From Aquidulcibacter sp. (GTDB taxonomy: Bacteria > Pseudomonadota > Alphaproteobacteria > Caulobacterales > Aquidulcibacteraceae): 62,096 nt of DNA. The notes beneath the pieces were generated by a model. That model saw only the letters and a list, made by a program, of their open reading frames with translations, did not search any database and was not told where the DNA came from. The translations under genes and the position numbers were made by a program. Positions 11,384 to 16,160 of this stretch are shown here, piece by piece. Location: positions 1-62,096 of the forward strand of contig JAPZTJ010000005.1 in the NCBI GenBank assembly GCA_027532555.1, read 5' to 3'. The first letter of the stretch is position 1. The number at the start of each line of letters is the position of its first letter.

Positions 11384-11534
11384 TCAAACGTCCGCCTTCG
11401 AGCAACCCACAAAACTGCGATAAACGGCAACCCTTGGCGCATTTGAGACTGTCAGCATTTCGGCAGAACTTGGCCGATTGCGGATGGTCTGGTTTGGGGG
11501 CGCGTGGACGTCGAAAGCTGCCATTCGATGCCAA
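11384..11534 (+). repeat. dispersed intergenic repeat, copy 4 (near full length)
   Basis: Starts 'AACGTCCGCCTTCGAGCAA', passes 'CCTTGGCGCATTTGAGAC', 'CATTTCGGCAGAACTTGGCC' and 'GATGGTCTGGTTTGGGGG', and ends near 'GACGTCGAAAGCTGCC'. It fills much of the 588-base gap 11051-11638, which otherwise holds the IS66 tail and the arsR promoter. Confidence 0.75.
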
Positions 11535-11618
11535 ACCTTCAACGTTCGAAAAATTGGAAAGTCGGCGCTGAGCAACAAAGCGATGGATAGACAAACTTTC
11601 GTCTTGCTTCTTTTTATT

Positions 11619-11638
11619 ATTTCATGTATCCATGAAAT
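11619..11638. promoter_or_regulatory. perfect 20-bp palindrome, ArsR operator
   Basis: ATTTCATG-TATC-CATGAAAT is a perfect 8-4-8 inverted repeat that ends exactly one base before the arsR start codon. ArsR/SmtB repressors bind such sites over their own promoters; binding here would block the whole four-gene operon. Confidence 0.8.
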
Positions 11639-11965
11639 ATGGAACAAAATATCGCAATCAAAATGTTGTCTGCAATTGCTCATGAAGGGCGTTTGTCGCT
11701 GGTGCGCAGGCTGATCCAAGCGGGGCCACAGGGCATGCCAGCAGGCGATCTAGCCCGCTTTGCTCAGATCGGGCCAACCACGGCGTCCGCACAATTGCTG
11801 ATCCTGACAAATGCGAACCTCGTCAAATCGACCCGCAATGGTCGTGAGGTGATTTATTGCGCCTGCTACGACCGCTTTAGCGAATTGGTGCAGTTTCTGA
11901 TGCATGATTGTTGCGCCAAGCGCCCTGAGATTGTCCAGCTTCTCGACGACGAGATAAGCGCATGA
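11639..11965 (+). CDS. ArsR/SmtB-family repressor with C-terminal cysteine cluster
   Basis: The 108-residue winged helix protein begins MEQNIAIKMLSAIAHEGRLSLVRRLI. Its recognition region is 'MPAGDLARFAQIGPTTASAQLLILTNANLVKSTRNGREVIYCACYD', in pieces. Cysteines C74, C76, C91 and C92 ('YCACYD' and 'MHDCCAKRPE') lie at the C-terminal dimer helix, as in As(III)/Sb(III)-sensing ArsR proteins with a CC pair there. It is the first gene of an operon (ATGA overlap with the next). No arsenate reductase, Acr3/ArsB or other classical arsenic gene follows, so the inducer may be a metalloid, a thiol-reactive compound or something else. Confidence 0.9.
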   Translation: MEQNIAIKMLSAIAHEGRLSLVRRLIQAGPQGMPAGDLARFAQIGPTTASAQLLILTNANLVKSTRNGREVIYCACYDRFSELVQFLMHDCCAKRPEIVQLLDDEISA

Positions 11966-13242
11966 ACGCCAAGTCAGTTAACTTAATACCAGACAAGGCG
12001 GAAATCACTGCGCTCAATAAGACTTGCTTTTGTCTGCCTTTGGGCCGCAAGCAAATCGATGCTTCGATTCTGTCGTCGGGGAACGTCCCGGAAATGGCCA
12101 GTCTTTTGGCTGAAAGACCAAACCTATTCGCGAGTACTGGCGTTTTTCTTGCTGCAAGCGATCTCGATAGCATGATCGACCAGATTCACGCTATAGAAGC
12201 GGCGACCCAGACCGTCAGTTATCAGGACATAACCTTATCCCGAGCCGATGGTGCTCTGGCCAATGTCCAGCCCGAAACGCGCGGCGTTCTGATGGGCTAT
12301 GATTTCCATGTTACCCCAGACGGCCCCCTCCTGATTGAGATTAACACCAATGCGGGCGGCATATTTCTTGTTCAAGCGCTGAGCCGCGCTGTGCAGGGTG
12401 GCGCGCTGCCTGGCTATCTCGCGTTTGGGGCCAGTCGTTTTGAAGAGCGCATTTTTGAGATGATGGTGTCAGAATGGCGCGCTGCCGGTCGGCTAGGTCA
12501 GCCCCAAACACTTGCCATTGTCGATGACAATCCCGAAGCGCAGTATCTCTATCCTGACATGCTGCTGGCACAGGCACTCTTGAATGAACAGGGTATTACA
12601 ACAATCATTGTCAACTCCGCTTCACTTGCCATAGGTTCCCGCGGCTTGATGGCAGGAGACCACGTTATTGACATGGTCTACAATCGACTGACAGATTTTG
12701 CGTTGGCCATGCCCCAGTCTGAGGCCTTGCGATCCGCTCTACTGCAGAATCAAGTCGTCGTCACGCCTTCGCCTCGCCATCATGCTTTGTATGCCGACAA
12801 GCGCAATCTCGCATTTCTAAGCGATGCCGCAAAACGCAAAACGTTGAACCTAGCCCCCCATCACGCACAAGCGCTCACCAGCCTTCCCGAAACTGTTGAG
12901 GTCACACCTGAAAAAGCCGATGCGCTTTGGGCTGCCCGCAGGGACCTGTTCTTTAAGCCTGCCACCGGATTTGGCGGCGCTGCTGCTTATCGCGGCGACA
13001 AGCTGACGCGACGTGTTTGGAATGAAATTCTAAAAGGTGGCTACGTCGCACAAGCCTTTGTTGCACCCCAGACTCGTCTTGTTGCAACTGAAGAGGGCCC
13101 GGCAGTCCTGAAGTTTGATGTCCGGGTCTTTACGTTTTCAGGCGATCCTCTGATGTTGGCCGCGCGCGCATATCAGGGCCAAACAACGAATTTCCGGACC
13201 TATGGCGGCGGCTTTGCCCCTGTGATCCTAACCGATGCATAA
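11962..13242 (+). CDS. putative circularly permuted ATP-grasp ligase
   Basis: The 426-residue protein shows ATP-grasp elements in unusual order. Near residues 113-133 is 'YDFHVTPDGPLLIEINTNAGG', whose E126/N128 look like the Mg-ATP ligands that normally close an ATP-grasp domain. Near 330-340 is 'LFFKPATGFGGAAAY', the lysine plus glycine-rich loop that normally comes earlier, followed by 'YVAQAFVAPQTR' and 'AVLKFDVRVFTF'. The order implies a circular permutation, as in some peptide ligases. ATP-grasp enzymes join a carboxylate to an amine or thiol. It sits between arsR and TVP38, with a GST further down, so a thiol or peptide product is a reasonable guess. The reaction itself is not identifiable from sequence. 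Confidence 0.7.
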   Translation: MNAKSVNLIPDKAEITALNKTCFCLPLGRKQIDASILSSGNVPEMASLLAERPNLFASTGVFLAASDLDSMIDQIHAIEAATQTVSYQDITLSRADGALANVQPETRGVLMGYDFHVTPDGPLLIEINTNAGGIFLVQALSRAVQGGALPGYLAFGASRFEERIFEMMVSEWRAAGRLGQPQTLAIVDDNPEAQYLYPDMLLAQALLNEQGITTIIVNSASLAIGSRGLMAGDHVIDMVYNRLTDFALAMPQSEALRSALLQNQVVVTPSPRHHALYADKRNLAFLSDAAKRKTLNLAPHHAQALTSLPETVEVTPEKADALWAARRDLFFKPATGFGGAAAYRGDKLTRRVWNEILKGGYVAQAFVAPQTRLVATEEGPAVLKFDVRVFTFSGDPLMLAARAYQGQTTNFRTYGGGFAPVILTDA

Positions 13243-13975
13243 GGTGGCGACCTCTCGGTCAAGCAATTGGCTATTCATCGAAATTGTGGGCGTCCCGCTT
13301 TATCGCTGGCTGTTACTGTGTGGCATTGTGCTCGGTCTTGTTGGCGTATCCATGGTGATCCGAACTCAACTCAGGATCGATTGGAATTTAGACTCTTTGC
13401 GTGCTTTCGTGCAGAGCCTTGGGATTTGGGGGGCCCTTGCGTTTATTGGTATTCTAACTTTCCGGTTTCTATTCCTTATTCCGACCGGCCTATTACTCTT
13501 GGCGGGTGGCGCTATTTTTGGCCCCGTTTATGGCACCCTATACGCCGGGCTTGGGATGTTCTTATCCGGCATGTTGAAATTTGGCCTGGTCGCCATTCTG
13601 GGCCGGGATAAAGTATTGAGCACGTTGCCGCCAAAGGTTCAGTCATGGGTGCGCAAACTGGCGCAAGGCCGCATGAGCGCGTGGGCATTGTTTGGCATTT
13701 GCGCGTATCCGTTCTTTCCGAAGCACGTCTTTCAATACGCCGCGATATTGTCAGGCATGAGCCTCCTTCGCTTCATCGTTGCAGTTCTATTCGGGTGCAT
13801 GGTGCAGGCCTTCTTGTTCGCCAACATTGGCCAAGCGCTATACTCAGGCGCTGGCATTGCCCTTTCAAGCAGCATTCTTCTCATCAGCATCCTCGTGCCT
13901 CTCTGTGTCCCGGCTTGGCGACGCTGGATGTTGGCATCCCTGCAACCCAAAACGGATACGGAGAAGCCCAAATGA
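13235..13975 (+). CDS. TVP38/TMEM64 (VTT-domain) membrane protein
   Basis: The 246-residue protein has about six membrane helices. The VTT/SNARE-associated region is 'LIPTGLLLLAGGAIFGPVYGTLYAGLGMFLSGMLKFGLVA' (in pieces), with the family G-x-x-F-G motif, then 'AYPFFPKHVFQYAAILSGMSLLRF', the conserved P-x-x-x-x-N/Q-Y-x-x-G block. DedA/TVP38 relatives move lipids or ions across the inner membrane, and TVP38-like genes recur in metal- and arsenic-linked operons. The gene overlaps the ATP-grasp gene by 8 bp and the GST gene by 4 bp. Confidence 0.87.
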   Translation: MHKVATSRSSNWLFIEIVGVPLYRWLLLCGIVLGLVGVSMVIRTQLRIDWNLDSLRAFVQSLGIWGALAFIGILTFRFLFLIPTGLLLLAGGAIFGPVYGTLYAGLGMFLSGMLKFGLVAILGRDKVLSTLPPKVQSWVRKLAQGRMSAWALFGICAYPFFPKHVFQYAAILSGMSLLRFIVAVLFGCMVQAFLFANIGQALYSGAGIALSSSILLISILVPLCVPAWRRWMLASLQPKTDTEKPK

Positions 13976-14595
13976 TCACCCTTTTTGGTGCCGCAACCAC
14001 AAACGCGCGCAAGGTCGCCATTGGCTTGGCAGAGCTTGGCCTCGATTGGGTGCCACGTCACGTGCGGCTTGATCAAAAGGAGCAACATGACGCGTGGTTT
14101 CTGGATATCGCGCCCAACAATAAGATCCCAGTGTTGCATGACGACGCGACGGGCATGACAGTTTGGGAGTCAGGCGCAATTCTTACTTATCTGGCCGATC
14201 AGTATGACGCCAAAGGCATCATTCTCGCAAAGTCGGGCGCGGCCCGTTATGCTGCAATTCAGGGTGCCTTCTTTCAAGCTGCCCATATTGGTCCCAACCT
14301 AGGTCGATTGAACGAGCAACTAACGGCCAGCGACGCGGCCAGAAATCCCCAAATGATGGCGCTATTCTTTGGCGAATGTGTGCGTTTGACAAGCGTGGTA
14401 GAACGCATGCTCGGAAATGGCCGGCCTTTTTTGGCTGGCGATTACTCCATCGCCGACATCATGCACTACCCGTGGCTTAAAGCAGGCCTCGATCACGGCT
14501 TCCCGGCACTCCTCGACAAACCCATTGTGACCGATTGGCTGGCCCGCATTTGGGAACGGCCTGCCGTGGGAGTGGGCATGTTGTCCTTTGACTGA
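13972..14595 (+). CDS. glutathione S-transferase, nu-class-like (YfcG/YghU type)
   Basis: The 207-residue protein begins MITLFGAATTNARKVAIGL. The N-terminal thioredoxin-fold domain has 'TTNARK', like the T-x-N active-site motif of YfcG, the cis-proline loop 'NKIPVL' and the glutathione-binding 'WESGAILTYLA'. The C-terminal helical domain carries 'FLAGDYSIADIMHYPWL', the usual GST N-capping box. Nu-class enzymes hold two glutathiones and act as disulfide reductases or peroxidases. It is last of the operon, with ATGA overlap; no gene follows within 300 bp. Confidence 0.9.
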   Translation: MITLFGAATTNARKVAIGLAELGLDWVPRHVRLDQKEQHDAWFLDIAPNNKIPVLHDDATGMTVWESGAILTYLADQYDAKGIILAKSGAARYAAIQGAFFQAAHIGPNLGRLNEQLTASDAARNPQMMALFFGECVRLTSVVERMLGNGRPFLAGDYSIADIMHYPWLKAGLDHGFPALLDKPIVTDWLARIWERPAVGVGMLSFD

Positions 14596-14665
14596 TGTTA
14601 CTGGCGATATATGAAATCAGCTTCTTGGCATTCCAAAAAGAACAATTATTGCAGCGCAATTGGCA

Positions 14666-14723
14666 AATGTCCGCTTTCGAGCAACCGCCAAACCACCCCA
14701 AATGGCAACCCATGGCGCTTGCC
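14666..14723 (+). repeat. dispersed intergenic repeat, copy 5 (left half)
   Basis: Begins 'AATGTCCGCTTTCGAGCAAC', continues 'CGCCAAACCACCCCAAATGG' and 'CAACCCATGGCGC', then stops. It is the left half only. It lies in the 14596-14914 gap, whose remaining part is the end of the IS5-family element. Confidence 0.7.
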
Positions 14724-14803: not shown

Positions 14804-16160
14804 GAGGGGTTTTGGCCTGATCGGTTCTTGTTGTGCGCCTGATCGTCCCGCTTTCGGGGGTTTCTGGTTCATTTTTCTGGGCTTATCGGCGTGTTGGGCG
14901 GATTTTAGGCGCACTTATCCTGTCGCAGGCCTTGGATTTGGTCTTGCTTGAAGGGTGACGAGGCGCGCCATATTGTAGGCGATGTTAGCGATGCCGATCT
15001 TTGTTCTGGCCCGTGCCAGGCCTATGGTCCGGATGAACAGGCCACGCTTGTGCTTGATTACGGCGAACACATGCTCGACCCTAGCGCGAATGATCGATTT
15101 CTTGGCATTGGCGCGGGCTATGTTGGATGGCATGGGTTTGCCTTGGGGTTTCTTCTGGTGGATGCGCGAAGTCAGCGCCTTATCCTTGAGCCACGCCTCA
15201 TTGGTCTTTGATCGATAGGCTGTGTCCGCATAGACTTCGCTGGACAGATTGTCGGTGCTGACGATTTCGCGCAGCATGGCCCCATCATGGGCATTGGCTG
15301 GGGTGGCTTCATAGGACCGGATAAAGCCGTGTCGGCCATCGATAGCGATGTGATCCTTGTAGCCAAAAGTCGGGATGGCAATGTCCACGGGCGGCTTGGT
15401 GCCATCGGGGCGTTCCTTGGCTTTGGTGAACTTCACCGTCCAGCGCGCTTGGGTATCTTTTTGAGCGGCCTTGGCTGGCTCGTCTAGCCAGATCTGTGCG
15501 GCAGTCTTGCCAGCCTTGGCGGCATCCTTTTCCTCTTGGGTCATGCGTTGGCGCGGGGCCTGAACCAGCGTCGCATCGACAATCTGACCACCCATCGGCA
15601 AGTAGCCGAGCGAGCGCAGATAAGCATCAAGCTGATCAAACAATGGCTTGATGGCGCCTACGGCCGTCAGCCTATTTCTGAAGTGGCGGATCGTGTTCTC
15701 ATCAGGTGTCGGCTCGTTCAGGCCAAAGCCCAGAAACCGTAACCAGCTCAAACGGTCCTTGATCAAAAACTCCGTGCGCGCGTCCGACAAATCATTCTGC
15801 GCCTGCAAGAGCAATATCTTGAACATGGCCACTGGGACATAAGGAGGTCGGCCACCCTTGGCTCCATCACTATACCCCAAAGCATCCTCCAGAACCGGAC
15901 GAAACACTTCAAAATCCACCGCCGAAGCCAGCACTTCCAACGGATCGCCGTTCTTCGATATCCGCTTCAAATGCTCCGGCATGTCAAACAAACCGCCCTG
16001 CTTGACCCGCTTCATCCGACGCAAACGCTGCATACCTGCCTCCATCGCAACAACACGATGGAATCACGGTTTAATACCTCAGGCTAAGGGTTTTTGCGGG
16101 TGGCCAGCTTTGTATCGCCAGTGCGGCTAGAATAGCTGGACCCGCCGGCAAGAATCCCTC
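14804..16160 (-). mobile_element. IS5-family insertion sequence (~1.36 kb)
   Basis: The ends are proposed from GAGGGGTTTTGGCC (14804-14817) and the reverse complement of GGCAAGAATCCCTC (16147-16160), which agree at 11 of 14 positions and begin with GAGGG as many IS5 relatives do. They enclose one transposase gene on the minus strand. AAGG occurs just outside the left end (14800-14803) and one base beyond the right end (16162-16165), but I cannot claim a clean target duplication. The exact ends are uncertain by a few bases. Confidence 0.6.
14915..16033 (-). CDS. IS5-family DDE transposase
   Basis: The 372-residue protein has the N-terminal DUF772-type domain ('PPYVPVAMFKILLLQAQNDLSDARTEFLIKDRLSWLRFLGFGL', in pieces, and 'PTPDENTIRHFRNRL'). 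The DDE domain has D in 'GGQIVDATLVQAPRQR', D in 'EVYADTAYRSK' and E in 'RVEHVFAVIKHKRGLF'; the last fits the Y-R-E-K signature of the IS5 group. It is full length without stops, so the element may be active. The ATG at 16033 has GGAGG just upstream; an in-frame ATG at 16045 lacks a comparable site. Confidence 0.9.
   Translation of the reverse strand: MQRLRRMKRVKQGGLFDMPEHLKRISKNGDPLEVLASAVDFEVFRPVLEDALGYSDGAKGGRPPYVPVAMFKILLLQAQNDLSDARTEFLIKDRLSWLRFLGFGLNEPTPDENTIRHFRNRLTAVGAIKPLFDQLDAYLRSLGYLPMGGQIVDATLVQAPRQRMTQEEKDAAKAGKTAAQIWLDEPAKAAQKDTQARWTVKFTKAKERPDGTKPPVDIAIPTFGYKDHIAIDGRHGFIRSYEATPANAHDGAMLREIVSTDNLSSEVYADTAYRSKTNEAWLKDKALTSRIHQKKPQGKPMPSNIARANAKKSIIRARVEHVFAVIKHKRGLFIRTIGLARARTKIGIANIAYNMARLVTLQARPNPRPATG

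Follow-up and report, generated by a model that had tools for sequence, protein, structure and literature searches.

An ArsR-linked operon for a permuted ATP-grasp ligase in Aquidulcibacter: a candidate module of thiophilic metal(loid) stress

The window analysed here is a stretch of 62,096 nucleotides from Aquidulcibacter sp. (contig JAPZTJ010000005.1). It contains a short operon in which the gene for an ArsR-family repressor is followed by genes for an ATP-grasp ligase, a membrane protein and a glutathione S-transferase (GST). The operon and its putative control region comprise the following features:

11604..11632, + strand: predicted promoter, TTGCTT (11604-11609), 17 nt, TATCCA (11627-11632)
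11618..11639, no strand: operator-like inverted repeat TATTTCATG-tatc-CATGAAATA, spanning the predicted -10 element
11639-11965, + strand: arsR, ArsR-family repressor with a vicinal cysteine pair, C91-C92
11962-13242, + strand: ligase of 426 aa, permuted ATP-grasp, with the fold of glutathione synthetase and glutathionylspermidine synthetase
13235-13975, + strand: VTT-domain (TVP38/DedA-type) membrane protein (PF09335, VTT_dom, 55.1 bits, cut-off 33.9)
13972-14595, + strand: YfcG/YghU-like GST (GST_N, 49.6 bits; PRK13972, 95.4 bits)

Successive genes overlapped by 4, 8 and 4 bp, as the initial annotation had read them, and the VTT assignment of the membrane protein was upheld by its score. The same annotation had noted the lack of any known arsenic gene. 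Pfam and NCBIfam scans found no arsenic effector (pump, reductase or methylase) among the four genes; the genome-wide search, made for ACR3 only, gave no match either. The suggestion that the four genes form a conserved unit had to be rejected, because an ortholog of the VTT gene occurred in only two of the 398 genomes of an order-level sample, namely the genome studied here and G348, the one other genome in which the set was intact. What recurs is a core made up of the ligase and an ArsR whose cysteines include a vicinal pair, sometimes joined by a YfcG/YghU-like GST. The expected co-occurrence of ArsR, ligase and TVP38 thus held for the ArsR-ligase pair, which like the ligase-GST link was found in other lineages, but not for the VTT protein, which is a local addition to the module.

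The surroundings of the operon showed some features of their own. An imperfect 29-nt direct repeat (86%) lies on both sides of it, at 11385-11413 and 14664-14692, and four other sites in the genome carry sequence resembling the downstream copy. A transposase-like open reading frame of 376 aa, recognised by eye, is located just downstream on the - strand (14915-16045).

The ligase had been read as an enzyme of permuted ATP-grasp layout within a candidate undescribed system. Its predicted structure (pLDDT 90.6) matched YgiC/YjfC, eukaryotic glutathione synthetase and glutathionylspermidine synthetase (Gss) over nearly the whole length, which confirms the permutation; unpermuted enzymes matched the C-terminal part only, the GshB folds aligning with residues 181-424. 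The permuted fold is common to the ligase, YgiC/YjfC, Gss and the eukaryotic glutathione and homoglutathione synthetases, at an identity of about 11-13%. As to novelty, no Pfam or NCBIfam family matched at E <= 0.1, and the relatives on plasmids were annotated as hypothetical in 30 of 31 records and left unlabelled in one. No description of the ligase family or the operon was found in the literature, as far as titles and the beginnings of abstracts go, subscription literature being mostly uncovered. Against the sequences of the PDB a profile of 33 ligase relatives gave matches at chance level only, and the single ligase sequence matched Escherichia coli GshB (E 0.003).

It might be supposed that the ligase is simply the glutathione synthetase of this genome. 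This was ruled out: a separate gshB, the sole genome match to TIGR01380 at E <= 0.001, was found at C70 (381.9 bits), and the ligase neither scored above the GshB cut-off nor had the unpermuted order. A permuted ATP-grasp is also common to the ligase and the circularly permuted families CP_ATPgrasp_2 (PF14403) and COG2308, the latter as presented in PMC8407117. The window ligase gave no CP_ATPgrasp match at E <= 0.5, and L114, a distant ArsR-linked relative, reached 31.3 bits with CP_ATPgrasp_2 (cut-off 32). The recognisable motifs of the ligase are NxxCxC at residues 19-24, D114, E126-x-N128, K332-P333 and a glycine-rich C-terminal loop at 406-417. D114, E126 and N128 are spaced like D318, E330 and N332 of E. 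coli Gss, which belong to the Gss active site. From the modelled fold, the probable reaction is the ATP-dependent formation of an amide at a carboxylate group. A homologous set of active-site residues is found in Cp1B, the E-64 ligase, according to PMC12568646.

Relatives of the ligase are widespread. They were present in 79 of the 398 genomes of the order sample and 124 of the 299 of a phylum sample, the genome studied here included in both and many of the latter being distant, as well as in six of 384 other genomes of a class sample (E <= 1e-60), on GTDB contigs (at least 588 relatives) and in the 31 plasmid records. For comparison of the neighbourhoods, 190 loci (16 from plasmids, 88 from the order sample, 6 from the class sample and the best 80 of the at least 588 on GTDB contigs) were reduced to 170 on the basis of the last 300 residues of the ligase; these loci are mutually related and some of the contigs are short. 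NxxCxC, counted anywhere in the frame, was present in 165 of the 170 relatives. An ArsR gene was found within 400 bp of the ligase at 26 of the 170 loci and in none of 39 control windows, which were hand-picked from the same genome set; a further control, L202, was left out for its overlap with a different ligase locus, and L233 shares about 1.5 kb with a case locus. The scan missed the ArsR of L285 and that of L133, which lies farther off; both were found by reading the loci. On a tree of 169 ligases the presence of ArsR required 15 changes, gains or losses, of which at least nine were forced. At L315 and L332 a CC-bearing ArsR followed the ligase and overlapped its end instead of preceding it. 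The taxonomic labels of the records for L170 (Hydrogenophilaceae) and for two relatives, L147 and L192 (both titled as Klebsiella pneumoniae metagenome-assembled genomes), appear doubtful.

The ArsR of the window scored just below the cut-offs of HTH_metalloreg (52.4 bits, cut-off 55) and HTH_20 (26.8 bits, cut-off 27). Cysteines C74, C76, C91 and C92, in which the arrangement of a metalloid sensor had been seen, are all present, but the arrangement is not a feature of the family. All 26 ligase-adjacent ArsRs possessed the vicinal pair, while C74 and C76 were both kept in only one of them (L079), so that a conserved metal site at C74/C76 could be ruled out. The nearest sequence of solved structure was 6j05, 'transcriptional regulator ArsR' (E 3.5e-6), which we take to be the repressor that responds to As(III) in Acidithiobacillus; C91-C92 fall on its CC in the alignment. 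Because of this alignment and because the pair is present in all 26 ArsRs, a thiophilic ion is the likely inducer, as judged from the sequences. With ars operons of the AfArsR type the window shares a repressor carrying a vicinal pair in the C-terminal helix, an autoregulatory layout and an operator over the promoter; it differs in having no arsenic effector among its genes and no ACR3 in the genome. The repressor itself differs from the AfArsR type in its additional C74 and C76 and in lacking a third cysteine. In the ArsR of L080 the sequence RPDIC stands at the position of that third cysteine.

The inverted repeat before arsR had been reported as a perfect palindrome of 20 bp. It is real and abuts the start of the gene, but measures 22 nt, 20 of them self-complementary, being made up of two 9-bp arms and a 4-nt spacer, and its last base is the A of the arsR ATG. 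The predicted -10 element TATCCA is covered by the palindrome and separated from this ATG by six nucleotides, from which we infer a repressor-blocked promoter and a leaderless mRNA. Of 17 aligned upstream regions from relatives, counted by eye, 12 had a TTG in register and eight had an NATNCA separated by 17 nt from the -35 slot and by 6 nt from the ATG; TTGNNT-N17-NATNCATGRA has a single occurrence in the genome. The operator core TYCATGNATNCATGRA was found in seven of 11 genomes with an ArsR-ligase pair, whereas the reversed control pattern was found in none. Seven of the eight sites lie just before arsR, one per genome, and the eighth, in G368, is part of a terminator-like hairpin; G458, G468, G582 and G625 had no such site, and the repeats before arsR differ there. 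The palindrome is therefore more than a chance occurrence, since it recurs before arsR in relatives. A wider regulon was looked for in the same 11 genomes, and the exact pattern gave no additional site except the G368 hairpin. With one site before arsR per genome, ArsR would, so far as the pattern shows, serve one operon.

The closest NCBIfam model of the GST is PRK13972 (YfcG), which agrees with its initial assignment as YfcG-like, but its score of 95.4 bits is far below the equivalog cut-off of 332 (PRK13972/NF010579), and the second model, PRK11752, gave 62.6 bits (cut-off 325). The YfcG structures 5hfk and 3gx0 were among its matches. A GST gene lay within 1 kb of the ligase at seven of the 170 loci; six of these are YfcG/YghU-like and the seventh, at L157, is a weaker match encoded on the opposite strand. 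One of the 39 control windows contained a weak GST match (1.2e-7). Beyond the window's own arrangement, a YfcG/YghU-like GST adjoins the ligase in four further lineages or gene orders. The order is ArsR-ligase-VTT-GST in the window and in L079, ArsR-ligase-GST in L080 and ArsR-GST-ligase in L133, where the ArsR is of another type; in L170 ligase and GST face a convergent ArsR, and in L285 and L286 the GST diverges from ArsR-ligase. At least four changes in GST presence are forced on the ligase tree. The recurrence of the same parts in shuffled orders is good evidence that ArsR, ligase and GST function jointly. The gss gene of E. coli also adjoins a GST gene, yghU.

A second setting of the ligase is the copper island. 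Copper-island markers were present at 16 of 40 order loci but in none of the 39 control windows (p = 5e-6), the copper reference proteins having been taken from plasmid relatives, with the case locus L100 (pCB4) as the source of several. When generic reference proteins were included, the counts were 20 of 40 and five of 39. The markers were absent from all 13 ArsR-bicistron loci among the 40 and present at 16 of the 27 others; generic matches in the former group were MerA-like in L099 and Cu-ATPase-like in L104. Among the 170 loci, 26 had an ArsR within 400 bp, 70 a copper marker and one both, and in the extended set L286 combined ArsR with CueR. Copper and mercury genes lay in many of the 16 plasmid neighbourhoods. 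Copper islands were found on pSinB, pHAL1, pMOSL3, pAK2, pCB4, pCME4A9II and p_2; the mercury plasmid pMR68 carries a relative, and that of a Stutzerimonas plasmid lies near mer and copper-binding genes. Few metal genes were located near some of the relatives, for example those on KO116, pSCD and pF1. The association of ligase relatives with metal genes is nevertheless strong, and these contexts support thiophilic metal stress as the probable setting of the module.

Some more distant relatives have other neighbours. One branch (about 30-35% identity, about 355 aa) adjoins TIGR04283 and TIGR04282 'arsenosugar biosynthesis glycosyltransferase' genes. Among 20 distant loci, clusters of both were found at seven, L240 (5859-8201), L241, L242, L244, L252, L253 and L258, and one of the two at L243 and L256; the proteins scanned were those of L240, and both exceeded the cut-off. 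Around the others (L239, L246-L251, L254, L255 and L257) an SbcC/Rad50-like gene recurred, at eight of the 20 loci; a PstS-like gene was present at six and an MFS transporter at five. The differentially transcribed genes of Nitratiruptor under Cd/Cu include an 'ATP-grasp domain-containing protein', NIS_RS04835, according to a table in PMC10092412; it may or may not be a member of the present family.

Taken together, these observations can be read as a stress module induced by thiophilic metals or metalloids, in which the ligase modifies glutathione or a related peptide and the GST handles the resulting thiol. We would give this reading a probability of roughly 45%. ArsR would sit on the operator overlapping its own promoter until C91 and C92 are bridged by a thiophilic ion, with As(III) and Sb(III) as the likeliest candidates and another soft metal as a possibility. 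Release of the operator would then allow all four genes to be transcribed into one mRNA. With ATP the ligase would convert the carboxylate of a peptide, most likely glutathione or gamma-glutamylcysteine, to an acyl phosphate and couple this to an amine, for instance an amino acid or a polyamine. The modified low-molecular-weight thiol could bind the ion or help to reduce what the ion oxidises, and the GST might use or recycle it; the VTT protein would be a local add-on.

Several points weigh against this interpretation. The inducer, the substrates and product of the ligase, the role of the GST and the leaderless start are all steps that we infer. The window ArsR has no cysteine after C92, so that the third cysteine of AfArsR, presumably C102 and shortly after the CC, has no counterpart. 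PF03738, the Gss family, matched neither the ligase nor anything else in the genome at E <= 0.001, and a profile link between ligase and YgiC, which was tried, gave no match. G112 stands in the ligase where Gss has R316, and the acceptor side of the ligase may for this reason differ from that of Gss; the N-terminal NxxCxC and the metal(loid) contexts likewise set the ligase apart from that family. Arsenic need not be the inducer, given that close relatives in the Henriciella group are found in copper islands with no ArsR. Finally, 163 of the 170 loci have no GST nearby, and 75 lack both a copper marker and an ArsR within 400 bp, some contigs being short.

The product of the ligase might be no thiol at all but a peptide or amide ligand of metals, or the enzyme might modify a protein or peptide, with the GST acting separately on oxidative damage. 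Because the fold is shared by YgiC/YjfC, which are peptide-spermidine ligases, and by the E-64 ligase Cp1B (PMC12568646), it does not fix the substrate, and most loci do without a GST. However, the association of GST and ligase is recurrent, and visual inspection of 12 gene tables showed no precursor peptide or efflux gene recurring next to ArsR and ligase; we regard this explanation as rather unlikely. Rather unlikely too is a redox or electrophile module, in which the vicinal thiols of ArsR sense a persulfide, disulfide or electrophile and ligase and GST restore the thiol balance. The GST does resemble disulfide-bond oxidoreductases, and the weak matches of ArsR include BigR (29.4 bits, cut-off 155; 3pqj), which NCBIfam names as a sulfite-sensing repressor, but the ligase has relatives in copper and mercury islands and the cysteine pair of ArsR aligns with that of 6j05, presumably an As(III) repressor. 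That a mobile ArsR-ligase pair picked up VTT and GST genes without common function would fit the two-genome range of VTT, the repeats and transposase-like frame around the operon and the patchy family (six of 384 class-sample genomes), yet it is very improbable given that the same types of ArsR, ligase and GST are combined in several gene orders and lineages.

Returning to the metal(loid) stress reading, a wider version can be imagined for the Proteobacteria, namely a mobile, metal(loid)-inducible pathway to an undescribed glutathione-derived thiol with a role like that of trypanothione or phytochelatin, made by the ligase, used by the GST and switched by a vicinal-cysteine ArsR or a copper-island regulator. 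We consider this extension unlikely. The module is directly testable, having a small gene core and, by pattern search, one operator per genome.

Accounts of metal resistance usually name efflux, reduction, methylation or sequestration by proteins. The ligase family is widespread, unnamed and often carried on plasmids, and its members are found in copper and mercury islands as well as behind repressors that resemble arsenic sensors. Its recurrence beside arsenic-type switches or in copper islands points to a chemical means of defence against toxic metals that has not been described before; if the ligase makes a modified thiol, a biosynthetic arm would be added to metal resistance.

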